Source: Kribbibacterium absianum
Lineage (GTDB): Bacteria; Actinomycetota; Coriobacteriia; Coriobacteriales; Atopobiaceae
Assembly (NCBI RefSeq): GCF_030067705.1
Contig: NZ_JASJEX010000001.1
Coordinates: 248,001-312,000, forward strand
Direction of reading: 5' to 3'
Length of the DNA stretch: 64,000 nt
The notes under the pieces were generated by a model. That model was not told the DNA's origin. It ran no database searches and worked only from the letters and a program-made list of their open reading frames with translations. Below, piece by piece: positions 11,301 through 34,370 of this stretch; within the stretch, counting starts at the first letter, position 1, and every line of letters starts with the position of its first letter. Made by a program: the position numbers and the translations under genes.

Positions 11301-11377
<77 letters not shown>

Positions 11378-21877: not shown

Positions 21878-23931
21878 GGCGCGAGCTCGAACCGCTCTTC
21901 ACGCCCTGGAAGATCGGGAACGTGGAGGTCAAGAACCGCATCGTGATGACGTCCATGGGCGGCACGGACCTTTTGGGATGGATGGAGAACAACCACTTCG
22001 ACAAGGCCGGTGCCGAGTTCATCCTGCAGGTGGCCGAGAACAACGTGGGCCTCGTGCTGCCGGGCTGCCAGCCGGTGTACAACCCGATGTTCGGCCAGTG
22101 GCTGCACCAGAACAAGAGGATGTACCGGGACCTCGCCGCCTGGATGCCGGAGTTCCACAAGACCGGCGCCAAGCTTTTCGTGCAGCTCACGGCCGGGTTC
22201 GGGCGCTCGTTCTCGGTAAGCCCGATGATGGAGGCGCTCTACACCAACCCGGTGCTGCGGACGCTCTCCAAGCCCTTCATGGACCTCGACATGATCTGCG
22301 CGAGCGCCAGCGCGTCCCCCAACCGGTGGAGCGACAAGGTGCCGAGCCGTGCCCTCACGGCGCAGGAGATCCAGCGCTTCGTCTACTCGTTCGCCCAGAG
22401 CGCCAAATTGTTGCAGGAGGCGGGCGTCGACGGCGTCGAGGTGCACGCCGTGCACGAGGGCTACCTGCTCGACCAGTTCACGCTGCCGTATGTGAACCGC
22501 CGCCAGGACGAGTACGGCGGGTCGCTCGAGAACCGCTACCGCTTCGCCACCCAGATCGTCCAGGCCATCAAGAGGGAGTGCGGCGACGACTTCCCGGTGT
22601 CCCTGCGCTACTCCGTGGTGTCCAAGACCAAGGGCATGCGACAGGGCGCCCTGCCCGGCGAGGACTACGTCGAGGTGGGCCGCGACATGGCGGAGTCCGA
22701 GAAGGCCGCGAGGCTGCTGCAGGACGCCGGCTACGACATGCTCAACTGCGACAACGGTACCTACGACGCCTGGTACTGGGCACACCCGCCCATCTACATG
22801 CCCGAGAACTGCAACCTCGAGGACGTGGAGCACATCAAGGAGTTCGTGGACATCCCCGTGGTGGCGGCGGGACGCTTGGTGCCGGAGGTCGCTGCAGAGG
22901 CCATCGCCGAGGGCAAGCTGGACGGCGCGGGCTTCGCGCGGCAGTTCCTGGCGGACTCGGAGTGGGTCACCAAGCTCACGGAGGGGCGCGACGAGGATAT
23001 CCGCCCGTGCATCCTGTGCCACAACGGGTGCTTCAACCTGTGCCACTACGAGGGCGTGCCCAACGACCAGGACCTGAGCGACTCGCTGCACATGGCCCGT
23101 TGCGCCTTGAACGCGCAGACCATGCAGACGGACAAGCACCACATCAAGAGGGCCGACCGTCCCAAAAAGGTGGCCGTGGTGGGAGGCGGCGTCGGCGGCA
23201 TGGAGGCGGCGCTGGTCCTGAAGGAGCGCGGGCACGACCCGGTGATCTACGAGGCGAGCGGCGCGCTGGGCGGCACGCTGATCCAGGCGAGCGCGGAGTC
23301 TTACAAGGGCAAGCTGCGCGACCTGCTCGCTTGGTACCGGCACCAGGTGGAGAAGGCGCAGATCCCGGTGCACCTGAACGAGCGCGTGACGGACCTGGAC
23401 GCCCTGATGGCGGACGAAGTGATCGTGGCGACCGGCTCCACGCCGATCCTGCTGCCTGTGCCGGGCGCGGAGAAGATGGTGGAGGCGTGCGAGTTCCTCG
23501 ACGGCGCGCCGGTGGGGGAGCGCGTGGTCGTGGTGGGCGGCGGCCTGACCGGCTGCGAGATCGCCTACGAGCTGCACCTGCAGGGCAAGCGGCCCATCAT
23601 CGTGGAGATGAAGAACGACCTGGTGGCGCAGAAGGGCGTCTGCCTGGCCAACAGCTCTTATCTGCGGGAGTACTTCGCGCTGCACCAGGTGCCGGTGTAT
23701 CTCAACGCGACGCTCAAGGAGGTGTTCGACGGCGAGGTTGTGGTGGAGCAGGACGGGAGGTCGGTCGCGATTCCCTGTGACTCCGTGATCAGCTCCGTGG
23801 GGTACCGACCGGCGCCGCTCAAGGGCCCGAAACGCTCGAGGAAGCGGGTGCGCTACGTGGGCGACTGCGCCGGCGTGGGGAACCTGCGCACCGTGGTGTG
23901 GGGCGCCTGGGACGAGGCCATGAAGGTCTAG
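21874..23931 (+). CDS. Old-yellow-enzyme-type Fe-S flavoprotein, 2,4-dienoyl-CoA reductase/BaiCD-like
   Basis: A 685-aa three-domain ene-reductase. Residues 1-360 form the FMN TIM barrel, with the family motif EGYLLDQFTLPYVNRRQDEY followed by GGSLENR. Cysteines in RPCILCHNGC and a later ARC bind a 4Fe-4S cluster (about 375-410). The last 290 residues hold FAD and NAD(P)H folds (VAVVGGGVGGMEA and VVVVGGGLTGCE). Electrons would run from NAD(P)H through FAD and Fe-S to FMN and on to an activated C=C bond. Relatives reduce enoyl-CoAs, bile-acid intermediates and other enoates. In this operon it probably reduces the product of aconitase X. Bases 22723-22866 recur inverted in the phosphate transporter gene. 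Confidence 0.9.
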   Translation: MRRELEPLFTPWKIGNVEVKNRIVMTSMGGTDLLGWMENNHFDKAGAEFILQVAENNVGLVLPGCQPVYNPMFGQWLHQNKRMYRDLAAWMPEFHKTGAKLFVQLTAGFGRSFSVSPMMEALYTNPVLRTLSKPFMDLDMICASASASPNRWSDKVPSRALTAQEIQRFVYSFAQSAKLLQEAGVDGVEVHAVHEGYLLDQFTLPYVNRRQDEYGGSLENRYRFATQIVQAIKRECGDDFPVSLRYSVVSKTKGMRQGALPGEDYVEVGRDMAESEKAARLLQDAGYDMLNCDNGTYDAWYWAHPPIYMPENCNLEDVEHIKEFVDIPVVAAGRLVPEVAAEAIAEGKLDGAGFARQFLADSEWVTKLTEGRDEDIRPCILCHNGCFNLCHYEGVPNDQDLSDSLHMARCALNAQTMQTDKHHIKRADRPKKVAVVGGGVGGMEAALVLKERGHDPVIYEASGALGGTLIQASAESYKGKLRDLLAWYRHQVEKAQIPVHLNERVTDLDALMADEVIVATGSTPILLPVPGAEKMVEACEFLDGAPVGERVVVVGGGLTGCEIAYELHLQGKRPIIVEMKNDLVAQKGVCLANSSYLREYFALHQVPVYLNATLKEVFDGEVVVEQDGRSVAIPCDSVISSVGYRPAPLKGPKRSRKRVRYVGDCAGVGNLRTVVWGAWDEAMKV

Positions 23932-23933
23932 CT

Positions 23934-24251
23934 CGGACGCTTCGGAGAGAGCCATTTGTCCACGCCTGGACGCTTGGGAGAGAGCCGTTTGTCCACGCCT
24001 GGACGCTTGGGAGAGAGCCCTTTGTCCACGCTCTGATCAGCTGGAGCGTGGACAAATCGCTTTGACGGGTGGGCCCGGTGCCGGCGAAGGGCCGCCGCCC
24101 GTCAGTGCCCCGGCCCATGGGCGCCCGACGATGCCGCGCCGTGGACGCTTGGGAGAGAGCCGTTTGTCCACGCTCCGCCCGGCTGGAGCGTGGACAGATC
24201 GCTTTGACCGAAGCGTCCAACCATGGACAAACGGCTTTGACCGAAGCGTCC
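23934..24251. repeat. Family B repeat cluster II (about seven units)
   Basis: Forward units start at 23934, 23967, 24000 (33-base period) and 24142; reverse units lie at 24050-24066 (truncated), 24191-24219 and 24224-24251. Forward units carry the GAGAGAG centre and reverse ones the TCAAAG centre. The cluster begins three bases after the flavoprotein stop and fills most of the 432-base gap before the phosphate transporter gene. Confidence 0.85.
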
Positions 24252-24363: not shown

Positions 24364-25609
24364 ATGGACATGGCAACACTCGTGGTGGTCGGTCTGGTCA
24401 TCGTCTTTGCCCTAGCGTTCGATTTCACCAACGGCTTCCAAGACACCGCGAACGCGATGGCCACCTCGATTGCCACCGGTGCGCTCAAGCCCAAGACGGC
24501 CGTGCTCATCGCCGGCGCCATGAACCTTGTGGGCGCGTTCCTCTCCACCGAGGTGGCCCAGACAGTCTCCGGCGGCCTCATCAACGAGCAAGAGGTCTTC
24601 ATCGGCCCGGAGTTCATCTTCGCGGGTCTTGTCGGCGCCATCATCTGGAACCTCATCACCTGGTACCTGGGGCTCCCGTCCTCTGGCTCCCATGCCCTGT
24701 TTGGCGGTCTCGTGGGGGCCGTCATCGTGGGCGCGGGCGTCGAGGGCGTCAACTTTGTCGCCGTCATCGACAAGATCCTGGTCCCGTCGCCACCACGGGG
24801 ATGTCCACGAACTCCTTGATGTGCTCCACGTCCTCGAGGTTGCAGTTCTCGGGCATGTAGATGGGCGGGTGTGCCCAGTACCAGGCGTCGTAGGTACCGT
24901 TGTCGCAGTTGAGCATGTCGTAGCCGGCGTCGAGGAGCACCAGATGGAGAACGGATTCCGGCACGGGCAGACGATCACCGCGTGCCTCGTCGCGCTGTCC
25001 CACGGCACCAACGACGCCCAGAAGACCATGGGCATCATCACCCTCACCCTCATCGCCACCGGCGCGCAGCCGAGCGGCACCGGCCCCGAGCTGTGGGTCG
25101 TCGCCATTTGCGGCCTCGCCATCGCCATGGGCACCTACATGGGCGGCTGGCGCGTGATCCACACGCTCGGCAAAGGCCTCACCGACCTCAACACGCCGCA
25201 GGGGTTTGCGGCCGAGGCCGCGAGCGCCACGGCAGTGCTCGCCAGCTCGCACCTGGGCTTCGCGCTCTCCACCACGCAGGTGTGCTCGGGTTCCGTGATC
25301 GGCACCGGCCTCGGGCGCGGCGTGCCCGTGAACTGGGGCGTCGCCAAGCGCATGCTCGTTGCATGGCTCGTGACGTTCCCGGCTGCTGCCGGCATGGGTG
25401 CCGTGGCGTGCTGCGCCGCAAAGACGGGTATGGCGGGGACCGTGGTGACGGCGGTGGCGTGCGCGCTGGTCTCGGGCTTTATCTTCTGGCTCTCGCGGAA
25501 GAACCCGATCGACGCCACCAACGTCACCGAGGACGACCCACAGGGCAAGCTGCAGCCCAAGCCTCAGTCCGCTGCGGTGCGCTCTGGCACCCCGACCCCA
25601 CAGATGTAG
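24364..25609 (+). pseudogene. PiT-family inorganic phosphate transporter, disrupted
   Basis: The N-terminal half (24364-24787) reads as a normal low-affinity phosphate permease: FDFTNGFQDTANAMATSIAT is the PiT signature, and SSGSHALFGGLVG follows. The C-terminal half (from about 24932, frame shifted by one) resumes with NGFRHGQ and the second signature ALSHGTNDAQKTMG. Between them 144 bases are an exact inverted copy of the flavoprotein gene. The N-terminal frame stops inside it at 24819, and about 35 residues with one membrane helix are missing. Either the gene is inactive or split, or the sequence was misassembled. An ATG at 24943 could start a separate C-terminal fragment. Confidence 0.85.
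24788..24931 (-). repeat. Inverted 144-bp duplicate of flavoprotein gene bases 22723-22866
   Basis: Base-by-base comparison gives 144 of 144 identical positions on the opposite strand, and one mismatch beyond it six more matching bases (GTCCCG). It encodes, in reverse, residues DAGYDMLNCDNGTYDAW and onward of the flavoprotein. The junction microhomology suggests template switching or a chimeric assembly. Confidence 0.95.
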
Positions 25610-25936: not shown

Positions 25937-26131
25937 ATGTTGAAGGTTCTGGGCAAGCTGGTCGGCGCCGCCGTGACCGTGGCGGCGGGCGTGTTCGCGC
26001 TGGAGAAGCTGGGCGTCGTGAAGTACAACCCCAACTGGGTCGAGGAGTGCCCGTGCCCCGTGGTGAAGGACCTGGCGTCGCAGTGCCCCGTCTGCTCGGG
26101 TTCTGCCGAGAAGACCACCGCCGAGGCCTAG
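25937..26131 (+). CDS. Small exported or membrane-associated Cys-rich protein
   Basis: A 64-aa protein beginning with a hydrophobic helix (VLGKLVGAAVTVAAGVFALE), followed by a short soluble tail with four Cys in two CPCP/CPVC-like pairs (EECPCPVV and SQCPVCSG), which could bind a metal. The ATG at 25937 is fixed by the strong AGGAGG. That site sits in the stem described above, so expression is probably controlled at translation. Family unknown. Confidence 0.65.
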   Translation: MLKVLGKLVGAAVTVAAGVFALEKLGVVKYNPNWVEECPCPVVKDLASQCPVCSGSAEKTTAEA

Positions 26132-26139
26132 CCCATCGC

Positions 26140-26217
26140 GTGCAAAAAGGGACAGTCCCCGTTTGCACATCAAACGGCCAATGAGTCAGCACCCGCCGGA
26201 CGGTGACTCATCGGCCG
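26140..26217 (+). repeat. Composite family A element, copy A3
   Basis: A 29-base GGGACAGTCCC hairpin (26140-26168), then a second hairpin CGGCCAATGAGTCA...TGACTCATCGGCCG. The whole 78-base element is 75/78 identical to 28265-28342. It lies eight bases after the small Cys-rich gene. Confidence 0.9.
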
Positions 26218-26330
26218 TACTTTGTACGCGCCGACCGAGACACGGGCGCTTTTCGGGCCTTTTCCATAAAAGCCTTGCTTTAGAGTGCTTCTAGCAACCC
26301 AGTTAGAACCTGAATGAGCAAGGAGGGAAT

Positions 26331-27236
26331 GTGGCCGCCGATGCCCTGAATCTGACGCGCCTTTGCCAGCCGGTGCGGTCGTGCGACGCCCTCGAGCGTG
26401 CGATTGTGCCGGCCAAGCCGCGCCTGTACGTGCGGGAGCCGTTCGAGGAGGTGCCAAAGAGCCTCGACCAGCTTCACCGGGAGTTCTCTGCTATCACCGA
26501 GCGCGAGGTCAAGACCTGGATGCTCTGGGCGCGGAGGCCCGCTCGCGAGGCCTACTACGAGGCGAACTTCCCGGACTACGTTGCAGAGCACCAGGCGGAC
26601 TTCGAGCGGCGGCACCGCAGCCATGAAGAAGCCCAGGATGCACGTCAGCGCGAGCACGACACGCCACTGCTGGCGCGGTACAAAGCCGAGTGTCAGGTGG
26701 CCGAGAAGCGCACCCTCGGCGATCCGGGTCTCATCGAAGGCCTGATTGAGGGGTACGTCGCCAGTCTCGCACTTCCGTTCGAACTGGGCTGTGAGAGTTC
26801 TTTCGACCTCACGGAAGGCGAGCTCTACCTGTGCCTCACGTTTCCTGGTCACGAAATCGTGCCGCCCACGTACGAGGTCAGCAAGCGCACCGGTGTTGGG
26901 GTTCGCGAGAAGTCGACCCGTCGGGTTCGCAGCGAGTACGTGCAGACCATGCTCGGGGCCATGCTTGCGGTGGTGACAAACGCGTTCGAAGCATCGCCTG
27001 CCATCAAAGCGGTGGCGGTTGACATCCGTGCGTGGACGAGGAGCCATAAGACGGGGGAGGGCATCGACTACGCGCTGGCACAGCGGTTCACGCGCGAGGC
27101 CCTGCTGGGACAACAGCTTGCGGGGATCGACCCCGACGACTGGTGCGCGGGTCACGGGCTTGTCTCGAATATGACGGTCACCAAGATCCTGCGCCCCATC
27201 CAGCCTCTCAAGAAGGAGGTCGACGGTGACGAGTAG
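26331..27236 (+). CDS. Hypothetical protein, first gene of a repeat-bracketed pair
   Basis: A 301-aa soluble protein with no family that I can name. GTG start with AAGGAGGG. The middle is strongly charged and helical (RRHRSHEEAQDARQREHD, about residues 91-108); the C-terminal half has a long helix-strand pattern (AIKAVAVDIRAWTRSH). No membrane helix or signal peptide. Its last eleven bases overlap the next gene, which is membrane-anchored, so the two probably act together. The pair is bracketed by nearly identical 78-base repeats. Confidence 0.7.
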   Translation: MAADALNLTRLCQPVRSCDALERAIVPAKPRLYVREPFEEVPKSLDQLHREFSAITEREVKTWMLWARRPAREAYYEANFPDYVAEHQADFERRHRSHEEAQDARQREHDTPLLARYKAECQVAEKRTLGDPGLIEGLIEGYVASLALPFELGCESSFDLTEGELYLCLTFPGHEIVPPTYEVSKRTGVGVREKSTRRVRSEYVQTMLGAMLAVVTNAFEASPAIKAVAVDIRAWTRSHKTGEGIDYALAQRFTREALLGQQLAGIDPDDWCAGHGLVSNMTVTKILRPIQPLKKEVDGDE

Positions 27237-28263
27237 GGACGTCGGGCGCGCCCTCGGGACGCTCAGGAATGCCTCGCGCGGCTGTCTGTACCCGCAGGTC
27301 GAGGAGGACCCGTGGAAGTACATGCCCACGGCCTACACGTTGCCGTGGGCGATGTCGCTCATGGCCATTGCGCTGCTCGTCTGCGGCTCTGCGTCCCTGG
27401 TGCTAGAGCTTGCAGCGTGCGCCATGGCCGTGGGGGCGTTGGTGGTGCGGAGGCGGAGCGGCGTGCCGAGAAAGAACCAGAGGCACCCGCGTTTCACAAC
27501 GGGCGCTTGTTTCTCGGTCGCGTTCCTGTCGCTCGTCATGGCGATGGGGATTGCCGGCGGTTTGGAGTCCGTTGCCGTCACCGTGGACTGTGATGAGCTG
27601 GTCGGTCGAAGCGTGACGGTTCACATGGACGGGGTCACGCGCGATGGCAAGCTGGTTGACGAGGACATCGAGGTCGCGGTCGGCGAGCCTAGCGAGACGC
27701 GGCCGGCGAGCGGAACGTACACGTTCAGAGTTGATTCGTCGGAGTTCGACACCGAAGAGGTCTGTTATGTTGCGGAGTCTCCATCGGTGACGGTGGACTT
27801 CGACCGGCATATCGGTGCGTCGGTATCGTTGCGGATAGAACGTGACGAAGGCAAGATCCGGCGCGTCGCCGAGGAGAGGGCTGCCGAAGCGGCCGAGGCC
27901 AAGGCGAAAGCTGAGGCAGAGGCGAAGGCCAAGGCTCAGAGGGAAGCGGAGGCCAAGGCTCGGGCAGAGGCCGAGGCGAAGGAGAAGGCAGAGGCCGAGG
28001 CGAAGGCGCGGGCCGAAGAGGAGGCTCGACGGCAGGCAGAGGCCCAGACGGCCGAACAGGCGGAGGCGGAGGCCAGGGCGAAGGCAGAGGCGGCTGCGGC
28101 GGCGGCAACGGCTGAGAAGAACGAGGAGACCGTCTACATCACCAAGACTGGGGAGTGCTATCACCGGGGCACCTGTTCCTCGCTGAGGCAGTCCAAGATC
28201 GCCATCTCGAAGGACGATGCCATCGCCCAAGGCTACCAAGCCTGTCAAAAATGCAATCCCTGA
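27226..28263 (+). CDS. Membrane protein with Ala/Glu/Lys coiled coil and C-terminal Cys/His domain
   Basis: A 345-aa protein. Two N-terminal hydrophobic helices (about 40-65 and 85-105) are followed by a beta-rich segment (about 110-200), then 90 residues of nearly uninterrupted AEAKAKAEAEAKAK-type helix (about 215-305) like the TolA stalk. The last 40 residues, VYITKTGECYHRGTCSSL to ACQKCNP, form a small Cys/His module resembling the Ada-type metal-binding tail found after nucleases and competence proteins in Firmicutes. GTG start with AAGGAGG. The repeat begins one base after its stop. Confidence 0.75.
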   Translation: MTSRDVGRALGTLRNASRGCLYPQVEEDPWKYMPTAYTLPWAMSLMAIALLVCGSASLVLELAACAMAVGALVVRRRSGVPRKNQRHPRFTTGACFSVAFLSLVMAMGIAGGLESVAVTVDCDELVGRSVTVHMDGVTRDGKLVDEDIEVAVGEPSETRPASGTYTFRVDSSEFDTEEVCYVAESPSVTVDFDRHIGASVSLRIERDEGKIRRVAEERAAEAAEAKAKAEAEAKAKAQREAEAKARAEAEAKEKAEAEAKARAEEEARRQAEAQTAEQAEAEARAKAEAAAAAATAEKNEETVYITKTGECYHRGTCSSLRQSKIAISKDDAIAQGYQACQKCNP

Positions 28264-28264
28264 T

Positions 28265-28342
28265 GTGCAAAAAGGGACAGTCCCCGTTTGCACATCAAAC
28301 GGCCAATGAGTCAGCACCCGCCGGGCAGTGACTCATTGGCCG
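28265..28342 (+). repeat. Composite family A element, copy A4
   Basis: 78 bases, the same orientation as A3 and differing at three positions. It combines the 29-base hairpin with a CGGCCAATGAGTCA hairpin. It separates the two-gene module from the convergent DUF1648 gene and can serve as a terminator for both. Confidence 0.9.
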
Positions 28343-28356
28343 TTCTCTGTGCGGTG

Positions 28357-29478
28357 TCAGCCCATGGCGAAACAGAGCCAGCAGAGGACGACGCACAACA
28401 GAACCATCCCCCCGAGGAACCCCCATGCGAGCGGGCGCCCCCAGTTGCAGGTCCAGCCCACGCCGAAGCGTTCGGGCACGAACACGGCCGGGTCGTCGCG
28501 GTTGACGTAGAAGACGCCGAGCTTCCAATGCTCGTCGTTGTCCGCCGGCATGGCGTCCGTTCCCTCCAGGCGCCTGAAGACGCGCGAGCCGTTCTGTCCG
28601 TACACGACGGCGAGCACGACGCCGCCGGCACAGGCGAGAATCGTAAGCAGCGTGACGATGATCGCGGCGCTGGCCATCGTGATGGCGCCGAAGCTGGACA
28701 ACGCCATGAGAACGCCGCACGCGCCCGTGATCACCAGGCCCATGACCAGCAGGAACACGCCCTGAGCGTGGGCGAAGAGGCCGTAGGCGTAGGCGGACGT
28801 CTGCGGGCGGTCGGGGTCCACCGCCTTGCGCGACCGCCGGATGGTCCAGAGGGAGAACGCGAAGATGACGCCGAGGAACACCTCCATGATCACGGGGAAG
28901 CCGGCCGAGAGGGGCGTTTTGGGCACGTAGTTGGTGACCGTGCCGTCGAAGCCGACGTGCATCGGGATCTGGCCGGGGATCTTGTCGTAGTTGAAGACGA
29001 CAAGTCCGACCGTCACCAGAACGAGCGGCACGTAGAGCAGGTTCCACCACATCGAGACAGGCCTGGGGACCTCGGGCTCATCGATGACGGCCGTGGATTG
29101 CTGGACCGCCGCGTGCCAGCCTTGGCTCGCCTTGAGGGCCTGCACCTTGCGGCGGTAATGCAGCATCAGGCCGAAGCAGCCAACAAGCGGCAGGGCAGCC
29201 GCGAGGCAGTAGAGCCAGAGGAAGGCAACGGCGTTCTCGTCGGCGTCCGCCAGAAAGGTGCAGCTCCCGAGTGCGATGAGAGAGCCGACCACCGTGAGGA
29301 CGACCGCCCCGAGGCAATAGCTGCGACGCCACTGGCGAATGGCCGGGTTCTCGCGCGCGCTGCTCGGAACCGTGACGGCAAAGGCCTCGGTGGCGGGCAT
29401 GAGCCACGGCGTCGAGGCCATGAGGGCGCCGCAGAGGGCGACGGCACCCACGAGAAGGACAACAATCAGCATTTTCAT
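28357..29478 (-). CDS. DUF1648/DUF5808 family membrane protein (SdpI-like)
   Basis: A 373-aa protein with about eight hydrophobic segments. YDKIPGQIPMHVGFDGTV (residues about 164-181) is the DUF1648 signature known from the SdpI immunity family and relatives; DEHWKLGVFYVNRDDPAVFV near the C-terminus is the DUF5808 motif. Such proteins are usually paired with a GntR- or ArsR-type regulator, as here. The role is probably envelope-stress or toxin immunity, by analogy only. Confidence 0.82.
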   Translation of the reverse strand: MKMLIVVLLVGAVALCGALMASTPWLMPATEAFAVTVPSSARENPAIRQWRRSYCLGAVVLTVVGSLIALGSCTFLADADENAVAFLWLYCLAAALPLVGCFGLMLHYRRKVQALKASQGWHAAVQQSTAVIDEPEVPRPVSMWWNLLYVPLVLVTVGLVVFNYDKIPGQIPMHVGFDGTVTNYVPKTPLSAGFPVIMEVFLGVIFAFSLWTIRRSRKAVDPDRPQTSAYAYGLFAHAQGVFLLVMGLVITGACGVLMALSSFGAITMASAAIIVTLLTILACAGGVVLAVVYGQNGSRVFRRLEGTDAMPADNDEHWKLGVFYVNRDDPAVFVPERFGVGWTCNWGRPLAWGFLGGMVLLCVVLCWLCFAMG

Positions 29479-29493: not shown

Positions 29494-29889
29494 TTAACGA
29501 GAGGGCCAGACGGCGTCCGCCGTCTGTGCGGCCAGGGCGAGGAAGGCGTCCCGGTCGAGGCCGCGGGAGGCCAGGTCGCGGGCGACGGCGTGCAACGACT
29601 CCAGCGCGTGGGCCAGGGATGCGGCCTGGTGGGCCGTGCTCTGGTACGAGGAGGGGTCGGCGATGCGCGCACCGGCGCGGCCGCGCATGACCACATAGCC
29701 CTCGTCGCGCAGGAGCGCGTAGGCCTTGTTCACGGTGTGCAGGTTCACGCCCAGCTGCTCGCCGAGCGCGCGGACGGACGGCAGCGGGTCGCCGGGCGAG
29801 AGCTCGCCGATTGCGACCGCCTGGGTCACTTGTCGGAAGATCTGCTGGTAGATGGGCACGTCGCTCATCTGATCGACGGTGAGTACCAT
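29494..29889 (-). CDS. GntR family transcriptional regulator, YtrA subfamily
   Basis: A 131-aa regulator: a winged helix at residues 8-75 (VPIYQQIFRQVTQAVAIGEL, then GDPLPSVRALGEQLGVN and HTVNKAYALLRDEGYVV) with only a short C-terminal helical tail, the YtrA-type architecture. The ATG at 29889 is chosen because the domain begins there. It is the first gene of an operon with the DUF1648 protein 15 bases downstream. Direct repeats in its promoter are likely operators, which implies autorepression. Confidence 0.87.
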   Translation of the reverse strand: MVLTVDQMSDVPIYQQIFRQVTQAVAIGELSPGDPLPSVRALGEQLGVNLHTVNKAYALLRDEGYVVMRGRAGARIADPSSYQSTAHQAASLAHALESLHAVARDLASRGLDRDAFLALAAQTADAVWPSR

Positions 29890-29978: not shown

Positions 29979-30007
29979 GTGCAAAAGGGGACAGTCCCCG
30001 TTTGCAC
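29979..30007. repeat. Family A hairpin repeat, copy A5
   Basis: A 29-base hairpin, GTGCAAAA arm and GTTTGCAC arm around GGGGACAGTCCCC. Unlike the other copies it lies upstream of genes, between the divergent gntR and hypB, where termination would be less expected. Confidence 0.85.
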
Positions 30008-30136: not shown

Positions 30137-30844
30137 ATGGCCATGGCCGTGGACGAGAGGGAGCGGGAGCTCCGTGTCATCGAGGTGCGCGAGTCCGTGT
30201 TTGCGAGCAACGACCGGGCGGCCGACGAGCTGCGTGCGGCCAATCGCGAGGACGGCCTCTTTCTGCTCAACCTGATGAGCAGCCCCGGCTCGGGCAAGAC
30301 CACGCTGCTCACGCGCGTGATCGAGCGTCTACAGCCGGAGACGACCATCGGGGTCATGGAGGCGGACATCGACTCTGACGTCGACGCCCGTGCCATCGAT
30401 GAGGTCGGCGCCGTCGCGGTGCAGCTGCACACCGGCGGCATGTGCCATCTGGACGCGGGCATGACGCGACGTGGCCTTGAAGAGCTGCGCGCGGCCGCCG
30501 AGGACGCCGGGCTGTCGCTGGACCTGGCGGTGCTCGAGAACGTCGGCAACCTCGTGTGCCCGGCGGAGTTCGACACGGGGGCGACCAAGAATGTCGCGAT
30601 CCTCTCGGTGCCCGAGGGCGACGACAAGCCCCTCAAATACCCCCTGATGTTCCAGGTGGTCGACGCGGTGGTCGTCAACAAGATGGACGTGGCGCCCTAC
30701 TTTGATTTCTCCCTTGAACAGGCCGAGAAGAACGTGCACCTTCGCCACCCGGGCATTCCGCTGTTCCCGGTGTGTGCGAAGACCGGTGACGGTGTCGACG
30801 CGTTCTGCGATTGGCTGCGTGACCAGATGAAGCTGGACGCTTGA
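30137..30844 (+). CDS. hypB: Hydrogenase nickel incorporation GTPase HypB
   Basis: A 235-aa SIMIBI-class GTPase that, with HypA, inserts nickel into [NiFe] hydrogenase. SSPGSGKTTLL is the P-loop (about residue 50), NKMD the base-recognition motif. GGMCHLDAGM and ENVGNLVCP carry the Cys-His and Cys of the GTPase-domain metal site. It lacks both a His-rich tail and the N-terminal CxxCGC site of E. coli HypB. The ATG at 30137 follows a GAAGGG. The last three residues and stop are made by a family B repeat. hypA is 3.1 kb downstream in the same direction; no hydrogenase gene is in the window. Confidence 0.92.
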   Translation: MAMAVDERERELRVIEVRESVFASNDRAADELRAANREDGLFLLNLMSSPGSGKTTLLTRVIERLQPETTIGVMEADIDSDVDARAIDEVGAVAVQLHTGGMCHLDAGMTRRGLEELRAAAEDAGLSLDLAVLENVGNLVCPAEFDTGATKNVAILSVPEGDDKPLKYPLMFQVVDAVVVNKMDVAPYFDFSLEQAEKNVHLRHPGIPLFPVCAKTGDGVDAFCDWLRDQMKLDA

Positions 30845-30944
30845 GTCAAAGCCGTTTGTCCACGCTGCAGCTGACCAGAGCGTGGACAAACGGCTCTCTC
30901 CGAAGCGTCCAACCGTGGACAAAGAGCTTTGACCGAAGCGTCCA
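30834..30944. repeat. Family B repeat cluster III (three units)
   Basis: Units at 30834-30862 (forward), 30883-30911 and 30916-30944 (reverse). The first overlaps the end of hypB. The forward unit and first reverse unit form a long hairpin through GTTTGTCCACGCT/AGCGTGGACAAAC. Both centres (TCAAAG and GAGAGAG) occur here side by side. Confidence 0.85.
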
Positions 30945-30975
30945 GAACGAGGCGTCCAGTCCTTAAGGAGGACCT

Positions 30976-33951
30976 GTGGCAACCATCCCCATGAACGAGA
31001 CCGTGGTCAAGGGCTCCGGTGTTCCCGTGCCCGGAGGCCCCGCGCCCACGTCCGCCGAGGAGGCCGGCGTCGCGGCGGTGTCGCTCGGCACCTCTCAGTA
31101 CGGCTCCGCGCGTCCGGCCGGTGCGCCTGCGTGCCCGGTCGACGACCACGGCCGCCTGAGCCCCGCCGCCGGCTTCGACGGTCAGCACGTCCCCTGGGAC
31201 TACCAGCCGCCGGCGCCCGAGCAGCCCCGCCAGGTCATCATCGACCTCGCGAACCTGATCTCCGACCGCATCGGCCACAAGGTCACGGCCGAGGACCCGG
31301 AGTACTACGGCCTCGCCGCCTGCATCACGGACGAGATGGCCGAGGTGGCGCTCCAGATGAAGGTGCGCCAGCCCAAGACCCTCGCGCAGATTGCGGAACT
31401 CACCGGAAAGGACCCGGACCATCTGCTCGAGCTGCTCCACGCCATGGGCTACGCGGGCCTCATCGAATGGAACTCCGAGAACGAGGACGGCAAGAACCCC
31501 GACCACGAGCGCCGCTACGTGCTGCCGCCCTTCGTGCCCGGCTCGGCCGAGTTCTTCAACATGCGCCGCTCCCAGATCGACGAGCACCCGGAAGTGGCCA
31601 AGATGTTCGAGCGCATGACGCAGCTGCCGCTCGAAAAGGTCACCGCGATGGTGCCGCCCGGCGGCGCGGGCATCGGCATGCACGTGATCCCGGTGGAGCG
31701 CGCCATCTCGATGGAGAACCAGACCGCGAGCGTGGAGCACATCTCCCACTGGCTCAAGAAGTACGAGGGCAAGTACGCCGCGAGCCCGTGCTCGTGCCGC
31801 ATGAGCCGCGAGAAGCTCGGCGAGGGCTGCGCGGACGACGCCGAGGACTGGTGCATCGGCGTCGGCGACATGGCCGACTACCTGGTGGAGACCGAGCGCG
31901 GCCGGTACGTTACCTACGACGAGGTGCTCGAGATCCTCGAGCGCGCCGAGCAGAACGGCTTCGTGCACCAGATCACGAACATCGACGGCGAGCACAAGAT
32001 CTTCGCGATCTGCAACTGCAACGTGAACGTCTGCAACGCGCTGCGCACGAGCCAGCTCTTCAACACGCCCAACATGAGCCGGTCGGCGTACACCGCAAAG
32101 GTCGAGCGCGACAAGTGCGTGGCCTGCGGCCAGTGCGTCGAGGCCTGTCCGGCCGGTGCGGTGAAACTGGGTCAGAAGCTGTGCTCGGCGGAGACCCACG
32201 AGGTGCCGGCGTACCCGCGGCAGCCGCTACCGGACGACACGCCTTGGGGTCGACACATGTGGAGCCCGGACTATCGCGACAGGAACCGAATCGAGAGCCA
32301 CGAGTCCGGCACGGCGCCCTGCAAGACGGCGTGCCCGGCCCACGTGCCGGTGCAGGGCTACCTCAAGCTGGCGGCGCTCGGCCGCTACGAGGAGGCTCTC
32401 GCGCTCATCAAGAAGGAGAACCCGCTGCCGGCGGTCTGCGGCCGCATCTGCAACCGCCGCTGCGAGGACGCCTGCACGCGCAACCGCGTGGACAAGGCCG
32501 TGGCCATCGACGAGGTCAAGCGCTTCCTGGCCGAGCGCGACCTCGACCCCGAGACCCGCTACATCCCACCGGCGCGCGTCCCGTCCAACCGCGGCGGCTT
32601 CGACCAGAAGATCGCGATTATCGGCGCGGGGCCGGCGGGCCTCTCGTGCGCCTACTACCTGGCCGAGAAGGGCTACCGCCCCGTGGTCTTCGACGCGCAC
32701 GAGCGCCCCGGCGGCATGCTCGCCTACGGCGTGCCGAGCTTCAAGCTGGACAACGACGTGCTCGAGGCCGAGGTGGCCGTCATGGAGGCCATGGGCGTGG
32801 AGCTGCGCCTGGGCGTGCGCGTGGGGGAGGACGTGACCCTCCGGCAGCTGCGCGACGAGGGCTTCCAGGCGTTCTACCTGGCCATTGGCTGCTCTGTCGG
32901 CCGCCTGCCCGGCATTCCGGGCGAGGACGCGCAGGGATGCGAGACCGCCGTGGACTTCCTGGCGCGGCTGGCGAACCCCGCCACCGACGCACCCGACCCC
33001 GAGCCGCTCGGCCGCGTGGTGGTGGTCGGCGGCGGCAACGTCGCGGTGGACGCGGCGCGCACGGCGGCGCGGCGCGGCGCGAGCGAGGTGTCGCTCTGGT
33101 CGCTCGAGTCCGCCGACGAGATGCCCGCGACCGTCGAGGAGGTCGCCGAGGCCGTGGCCGACGGCGTGAGCATCCACAACGGCTGGGGGCCCGTCGAGGT
33201 CGCCGTGGACGAGGACGGCCGCGTGGCGGCCGTGACGTTCAAGCGCTGCACGCAGGTCTTCGACGAGACCGGTCGGTTCTCGCCCGTCTACGACGAGGCC
33301 GAGAAGACCGGCACGGACGCCGACACCGTGGTCTTCGCCATCGGTCAGGCCACCGACTGGGGCGCGCTGCTCGACGGCGAGGAGCTGGAGCTGGTGCGCG
33401 GCCGCGTCGTGGCGGACCCGGTGACCTATCAGACGGCGCAGCCCGACCTCTTTGTGGGAGGCGACGTGCTCACCGGGCCGCGGTTCGCGATCGACGCCAT
33501 CGCGCAGGGTCACGAGGCGGCCGTCTCGCTGCACCGCTTCGTGCACCCGGGGTCGAGCCTCACGGTGGGGCGCAACCCGCGCCATTACGTGGAGTTCGAC
33601 AAGGAGGGTGCGGAGCTGCCGAGCTATGACACCGCCGGGCGCCAGGAGCCCGGCCACCGTGCGGACGTCGCCGCGCACCCCTTTGCCGAGGAGCGCGAGA
33701 CCTTCACCGAGGAGCAGGTGCGCACGGAGACGGCGCGGTGCCTGTCCTGCGGAGCGAGCGTCGTGGACCCCAACAAGTGCATCGGCTGCGGCGTGTGCAC
33801 CACCAAGTGCGCGTTCGACGCGATCCATCTGCACCGGGACCACCCGGAGGCGAGCCGCATGGTGCGCACAGAGGACAAGCTGAAGGCGATCGGGCCCTAC
33901 GCGCTCAAGCGCGGCGTCAAGATCGCGAAGAAGAAGCTCACCGGCCGCTAG
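30976..33951 (+). CDS. Large FAD/Fe-S oxidoreductase, glutamate-synthase-small-subunit-like
   Basis: A 991-aa cytosolic electron-transfer protein. N-terminal 330 residues: helical region then Cys-rich strings SPCSCRM and CNCNVNVCN. Next a ferredoxin site CVACGQCVEACP (about 378-389). Then the GltD-type Fe-S domain with CKTACPAHVPVQGYL and CGRICNRRCEDAC (about 452-505), FAD fold IAIIGAGPAGLSCAYYLAEK (about 543), NAD(P) fold VVVVGGGNVAVDAA, and a final ferredoxin site CIGCGVCTTKC. This suits an NAD(P)H-ferredoxin oxidoreductase or a partner of a hydrogenase or other reductase. Its place between hypB and hypA suggests, but does not prove, a link to hydrogen metabolism. Confidence 0.8.
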   Translation: MATIPMNETVVKGSGVPVPGGPAPTSAEEAGVAAVSLGTSQYGSARPAGAPACPVDDHGRLSPAAGFDGQHVPWDYQPPAPEQPRQVIIDLANLISDRIGHKVTAEDPEYYGLAACITDEMAEVALQMKVRQPKTLAQIAELTGKDPDHLLELLHAMGYAGLIEWNSENEDGKNPDHERRYVLPPFVPGSAEFFNMRRSQIDEHPEVAKMFERMTQLPLEKVTAMVPPGGAGIGMHVIPVERAISMENQTASVEHISHWLKKYEGKYAASPCSCRMSREKLGEGCADDAEDWCIGVGDMADYLVETERGRYVTYDEVLEILERAEQNGFVHQITNIDGEHKIFAICNCNVNVCNALRTSQLFNTPNMSRSAYTAKVERDKCVACGQCVEACPAGAVKLGQKLCSAETHEVPAYPRQPLPDDTPWGRHMWSPDYRDRNRIESHESGTAPCKTACPAHVPVQGYLKLAALGRYEEALALIKKENPLPAVCGRICNRRCEDACTRNRVDKAVAIDEVKRFLAERDLDPETRYIPPARVPSNRGGFDQKIAIIGAGPAGLSCAYYLAEKGYRPVVFDAHERPGGMLAYGVPSFKLDNDVLEAEVAVMEAMGVELRLGVRVGEDVTLRQLRDEGFQAFYLAIGCSVGRLPGIPGEDAQGCETAVDFLARLANPATDAPDPEPLGRVVVVGGGNVAVDAARTAARRGASEVSLWSLESADEMPATVEEVAEAVADGVSIHNGWGPVEVAVDEDGRVAAVTFKRCTQVFDETGRFSPVYDEAEKTGTDADTVVFAIGQATDWGALLDGEELELVRGRVVADPVTYQTAQPDLFVGGDVLTGPRFAIDAIAQGHEAAVSLHRFVHPGSSLTVGRNPRHYVEFDKEGAELPSYDTAGRQEPGHRADVAAHPFAEERETFTEEQVRTETARCLSCGASVVDPNKCIGCGVCTTKCAFDAIHLHRDHPEASRMVRTEDKLKAIGPYALKRGVKIAKKKLTGR

Positions 33952-33977
33952 GGTCGTCCGCAAGCGAAGGAGGCCCG

Positions 33978-34322
33978 TTGCACGAGCTGGGCGTTGTCTT
34001 CTACATCATCGACGCGGTCACCGAGACCGCCGAGGCGAACGGCGTCGGCCACGTCGACAGGGTGTCGCTCGAGGTGGGGGAGGCCACGGGCATCGTGCCC
34101 GACCTGTTCCAGGAGGCCTGGCGCTGGGCCGCGGACCGCACGGACCTGCTCCGCGGGGCGGCCCTCTCGAGCGTGTCCGTGCCGGCCATGAACCGGTGTC
34201 GCGCGTGCGGGCTCGAGTACCCGGCGTTTCCTGCCGGCCCCACCTGTCCCTCCTGCGGGAGCGGGGACACAGTGCTGGCCGCCGGTGACGACGTCACCAT
34301 CGTCTCGATCGAGGTCACGTAA
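33978..34322 (+). CDS. hypA: Hydrogenase nickel chaperone HypA
   Basis: A 114-aa protein, the nickel-delivering partner of HypB. It starts MHEL from a TTG; His2 is the known nickel ligand, which with the GGAGG nearby fixes the start. The structural zinc site is two pairs, CRAC (about residue 72) and CPSC (about 89). The middle VSLEVGEATGIVPDLFQEAW matches the family. It follows the large flavoprotein gene by 26 bases and ends at a family A hairpin. Confidence 0.93.
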   Translation: MHELGVVFYIIDAVTETAEANGVGHVDRVSLEVGEATGIVPDLFQEAWRWAADRTDLLRGAALSSVSVPAMNRCRACGLEYPAFPAGPTCPSCGSGDTVLAAGDDVTIVSIEVT

Positions 34323-34370
34323 AAAGCTGATGTGCAAACGGGGACTGTCCCTGTTTGCACATCAGCTTTT
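34322..34370. terminator. Family A hairpin A6 used as a bidirectional terminator
   Basis: A 29-base unit (34332-34360, core GGGACTGTCCC) extended by AAAAGCTGAT and ATCAGCTTTT arms into a 49-base perfect-type hairpin, with A and T runs on its two sides. It lies between convergent hypA and the next gene, and overlaps the latter's stop codon. Confidence 0.85.

Follow-up and report, generated by a model that had tools for sequence, protein, structure and literature searches.

A recurrent two-gene accessory module in Kribbibacterium absianum and the composite repeats that frame it

Within a 64,000-nt stretch of the genome of Kribbibacterium absianum, a member of Atopobiaceae in the order Coriobacteriales (the window; contig NZ_JASJEX010000001.1, positions 248,001 to 312,000), two overlapping genes are enclosed by near-identical direct repeats, A3 and A4 (Table 1). 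Each repeat is a composite of two independent dispersed repeats lying side by side, a palindrome and a hairpin, and the gene pair occurs elsewhere in the order without framing repeats. We regard it as somewhat probable that the pair was acquired as an independently mobile unit and that the compound intergenic element at A4 was copied to the pair's other side. The alternative view of the pair as a cassette moved via its repeats, itself unproven, is weakened by these observations.

Table 1. Features of the framed gene pair and its surroundings (positions in the window).
Feature	Position	Strand	Basis
64-aa orphan gene upstream of A3	25937..26131	+	reading frame
A3, first composite repeat	26140..26217, similarity to 26228	+	sequence comparison
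Dispersed palindrome (TIR/REP-like) inside A3	26140..26168		pattern search
A3 hairpin, lacking two of the stem pairs of A4, -27.1 kcal/mol	26174..26218		pattern search and folding
Gene 1, soluble 301-aa protein, GTG start, DUF4236-associated core, phrog_38135	26331..27236	+	ORF and profile searches
Gene 2, membrane-anchored protein with Ig-like region, extended Ala/Glu helix and Ada-like Cys/His tail	27226..28263	+	ORF and profile searches
A4, second composite repeat	28265..28342, similarity to 28353	+	sequence comparison
Dispersed palindrome inside A4	28265..28293		pattern search
A4 hairpin, perfectly paired, -32.6 kcal/mol, likely bidirectional terminator for gene 2 and the DUF1648 gene convergent with it	28298..28344		folding
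DUF1648/DUF5808 membrane protein, convergent neighbour	28357..29478	-	domain search
GntR-type regulator	29494..29889	-	domain search
Third palindrome copy, before hypB	29979..30007		pattern search
Fourth palindrome copy, after hypA	34332..34360		pattern search

Two dispersed elements make up the framing repeat

A3 and A4 are in direct orientation and differ at 3 of 78 positions (75/78 identical), and their similarity extends further at 93% over 89 bases. The anatomy given by an earlier, sequence-only reading is thereby confirmed: the repeats enclose exactly two overlapping genes, and the second repeat starts directly after the stop of gene 2, one base lying between the two. That description lacked the composite nature of the repeat and the extra palindrome copies that bound the next two operons. 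When the whole 2.18-Mb genome was searched, the full 78-base composite was found at only two places, A3 and A4, all other matches being to the palindrome alone or to part of the hairpin. As the palindrome and hairpin families adjoin only here, A3 and A4 share one ancestor.

Bases 1-29 of the composite, GTGCAAAAAGGGACAGTCCCCGTTTGCAC, belong to a palindrome family with about 30 genomic sites, many of which are doublets 31-43 bases apart; the pattern arose 0 times in 100 shuffles. The genome carries five Y1_Tnp genes, and one of these (C4:31906-32721, scoring over the Pfam cut-off) is abutted by inverted palindrome copies at C4:31873 (+) and 32692 (-). The sequence GGGGACAG, which fits the motif GGGGWSAS, is present in many genomic palindrome copies, including that at C4:31873, and the A3 and A4 palindromes carry AGGGACAG, one base off the motif. 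TIRtrons possess palindromic TIRs, part of which contain GGGGWSAS, and TIRs made of a palindrome and an unrelated stem-loop are on record (Di Nocera et al. 2013, PMC3733652). As in TIRtrons/TIRYT, the palindromes described here are dispersed, occur singly, as dimers or in clusters, and lie inverted around a tyrosine transposase gene; they differ in numbering only about 30 copies, in the departure of A3 and A4 from the motif and in a composite of two copies (PMC3733652). The clustered intergenic palindromes and the two inverted copies abutting a transposase gene also recall REP/BIME elements and their RAYTs (Nunvar et al. 2010, PMC2817692), but here the copy number is low and the GTAG head is missing. 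Indeed, neither the GTAG nor the CGTC head of classical REPs was found beside the palindromes, whose flanks are mostly GAT...ATC, or variable. A literature search for the palindrome sequence yielded no relevant paper. Judged from its sequence and from the copies abutting a Y1_Tnp gene, the family fits a tyrosine-transposase system of the TIRtron or REPtron kind.

Bases 34-78 belong to a second family, one of hairpins, ATGAGTCAnnnCCCGnCGGGnnnTGACTCAT, of which the genome contains 24 copies (0 copies for the reversed control pattern); 13 of 15 inspected hairpins are intergenic, mostly close 3' of a gene. The three mismatches between A3 and A4 are confined to the hairpin's loop side and right arm; two of them disrupt stem pairing in A3, which has the less favourable fold energy (Table 1). 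One feature of an intrinsic terminator, a stable GC-rich hairpin after a gene, is present. No T-run follows A3 or A4 to supply a U-rich tail, the terminator scan lists neither repeat, no promoter or T-rich terminator was recognised in the promoter and terminator scan, and Rfam gave no match at the gathering score. From its hairpin and its position, A4 is likely a bidirectional terminator that ends both gene 2 and the DUF1648 gene on the opposite strand. Because A4 folds perfectly between convergent genes, whereas pairs are broken in A3, A4 would be the one that has been maintained, with A3 under relaxed constraint. Another dispersed repeat, GGACGCTT...GTTTGTCCACG (33 nt), is found in tandem and inverted at 23935-24251 and, near hypB, at 30834-30945; it also lies beside a hairpin at C2:124189.

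Nine intervals of at most 4.5 kb between palindromes were observed in the genome, as against 1.7 expected at random and a maximum of 7 in 5000 simulations, and the palindromes at 29979 and 34332 also bound the DUF1648-GntR pair and the hypB-to-hypA block. Since palindromes cluster and bound neighbouring operons, palindrome framing is usual in this genome, and framing alone marks nothing; the unusual part of the A3/A4 frame is the shared hairpin. The frame had been read as suggesting a cassette, and this finds no support: both of its parts occur genome-wide, the neighbouring operons are bounded likewise, and framing direct repeats are absent at all seven other loci of the pair (0/7).

The enclosed genes and their recurrence

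Gene 1 aligns over its whole core with proteins bearing an N-terminal DUF4236 (PF14020), a domain that 6 of the 10 aligned homologues carry; gene 1 gave no Pfam match and lacks DUF4236 itself. Its core matches phrog_38135 (PHROGs, 3.5e-9). On the strength of these alignments, gene 1 represents the core portion of a family that is widespread and associated with DUF4236, minus that domain. A scan with an alignment of the family found 195 relatives; the full-length protein, DUF4236 plus core, is common across bacteria and extends to methanogens, DUF4236 cores being present also in some archaea. When 397 genomes of the order were searched with a profile, 18 strong loci emerged, and the distribution of gene 1 is patchy. 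A long series of weaker matches, with ~130 core residues in common, consisted of large TPR proteins and a single restriction endonuclease with Mrr_cat (L187:970-2415), the latter link being detected by the profile only and missed by single-sequence comparison. In the endonuclease, the domain ahead of the nuclease matches the last ~130 residues of the gene-1 core; unlike it, gene 1 has no nuclease domain. Long TPR proteins with the same ~130-residue domain (L180-L191) are common in Coriobacteriales. Single-protein scans of genome contigs and viral contigs with gene 1 found no match, and in INPHARED only the DUF4236 domain gave matches, gene 2 giving none. Gene 1 yields a confident predicted fold (mean pLDDT 92); its model matched no PDB or viral model below E 0.001, and the VIA-align Z of at most 5.5 is uninformative. 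The neighbours of 78 distant homologues share no common theme and include scattered, uncontrolled defence-type matches, which were left out of account. The literature search on DUF4236 found no relevant paper beyond a passing mention.

Gene 2 starts with GTG and encodes 345 aa. Its description as a membrane protein with a TolA-like coil and a Cys/His tail, next to a soluble protein, stands: the N-terminal region is hydrophobic, the Ala/Glu/Lys coil matches NCBIfam TolA (5e-10), and the tail weakly resembles the Ada metal-binding domain and matches phrog_14556. Assignment as TolA was rejected, as the match covers the coil only and reaches 39.1 bits against an equivalog cut-off of 59.45. Assignment of the tail as Ada_Zn_binding was likewise rejected (14.7 bits, curated cut-off 23), a cut-off exceeded only by the tail gene at locus L043. 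The tail and the Ada N-terminal domain (PF02805) have the Cys spacing and a weak profile match in common, but the tail ends a membrane-anchored coiled protein and has no Ada repair function. Gene 2 and its relatives are hydrophobic at the N-terminus and share an Ig-like repeat in one or two copies, a helix rich in Ala and Glu, and the Cys/His tail; the fuller members are 27-34% identical. The predicted structure is poor overall (pTM 0.35), and the charge distribution suggests that the C-terminal part should face outward. In genome G123 the homologue (L040:6354-7301) is truncated ahead of its Cys tail, where it passes into a frame resembling a glycosyltransferase, possibly through gene decay.

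A gene-2-type partner adjoins gene 1 at 8 of the 18 strong loci of the order, namely the window and genomes G116, G123 (tail lost), G022, G150, G091, G221 and G185. Six of these are divergent, the window and G091 being co-directional, and their surroundings are unrelated to each other. The Cys-tail pattern gave 1 spurious match in 285 kb of control loci, and outside the order a Ruminococcus and a Treponema have Cys-tail genes close to their gene-1 homologues. GC3 of both genes in the window is 0.80, compared with a window mean of 0.90 (sd 0.05), a drop of only about 2 sd that a few other frames equal; the lowered value fits a foreign origin of the pair. The differing surroundings, the lack of framing repeats at the seven other loci and the lowered GC3 together indicate an accessory module with its own mobility. 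The sequence-only reading had supposed such a module and proposed a search for the pair in other genomes; with seven further loci, two orientations and the patchy spread of gene 1, the supposition is borne out, and the pair was not found to be always at this locus with unrelated flanks in relatives. Nothing relevant was found on plasmids, and tRNA-linked integration was discarded, the only tRNA being at 11301. The gene pair appears not to have been described before.

The upstream 64-aa gene has no homologue in 139 other genomes of the family, and the 17 DUF1648-GntR loci of relatives show no synteny with the window, except for PiT within 3-6 kb in two genomes; the genus is represented in the collection by one species, the window's own genome only. 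In the window the pair lies 2-3 kb from hypB (block 30139-34322), and in three other genomes (L044, L046 and L192) no more than about 2 kb separates a gene-1 homologue from the hypA of a hypB-oxidoreductase-hypA block, a proximity commoner than expected. A 159-nt piece of the enoate-reductase-like gene recurs in inverted orientation inside the PiT phosphate permease gene (22715-22873 and 24781-24939, 97%) and splits the PiT frame, through either recombination or assembly chimerism.

Origin of the frame

In the explanation that we prefer, the pair would have been acquired from outside, and A4 would be the working copy that ends gene 2 and the convergent DUF1648 gene. The A4 composite, or conceivably A3 in the reverse direction, would have been copied to the pair's other side, starting at the palindrome edge, by transposase-driven copying, gene conversion or recombination, and A3 would be the second copy, since slightly decayed. 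The enclosed genes would move as an independent accessory pair, a soluble core protein with a membrane-anchored protein of outward coil and Cys tail. Against this explanation, the unique composite encloses exactly the foreign-looking pair, which copying unrelated to its arrival does not predict.

That enclosure would be accounted for if the pair had entered, and could leave, as a cassette, a donor pair with its composite having recombined with a single resident copy to leave direct repeats on both sides. The direct orientation, the uniqueness of the composite, the low GC3 and the patchy family agree with such an event, and direct repeats of this length predict low-frequency loss of the pair. 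We nevertheless consider it rather unlikely, given the seven other pair loci devoid of framing repeats and the palindromes that also bound the neighbouring operons. Moreover, a search of about 1.15 Mb of loci from relatives revealed no repeat of this type, so that a donor would need to belong to the same lineage.

A3 and A4 might instead delimit a unit that the genome's own tyrosine transposase moves in the manner of a composite transposon, with the pair as passenger. Although five Y1_Tnp genes are at hand and one is abutted on both sides by the same palindromes, those palindromes are inverted, unlike the directly repeated A3 and A4, a second 2-kb unit bounded in this way was not found, and the pair moves elsewhere without them, so that we judge this improbable. 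An assembly error, in which the second copy is the product of a collapse or mis-join, is brought to mind by the possibly chimeric inverted repeat of 159 nt that interrupts PiT in the same window. We hold it highly improbable, since the two copies mismatch at 3 of 78 positions and again on the way to base 89, and are set in different flanking sequences.

Possible function and significance

For the function of the pair, we offer tentatively a module of host-phage conflict or of envelope surveillance, in which soluble gene 1 would sense something and membrane gene 2 would act at the envelope. A role in host-phage conflict is weakly suggested by the links to the Mrr nuclease and to phage families; this link is a distant one between domains, and the phage families have no assigned function. 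PADLOC gave no model match for gene 1 and for gene 2 only a ZorF coil match (0.09). It is conceivable, though we would not count on it, that the pair constitutes a two-gene system of a DUF4236-type sensor core and a coiled protein exposed at the surface, whose tail binds metal, for which the repeats at this locus allow loss by recombination.

The A3/A4 frame illustrates that a near-identical repeat frame can mimic a mobile cassette though both of its parts are common intergenic elements. If the two-gene system is real, it would serve conflict or surveillance in Coriobacteriia, with rarer occurrences in Firmicutes and spirochaetes. Through the recurrent pair, the large, uncharacterised DUF4236-core family, which spans many bacterial phyla as well as some archaea, is linked to a specific partner in the membrane, and the family thereby gains a partner that can be tested.
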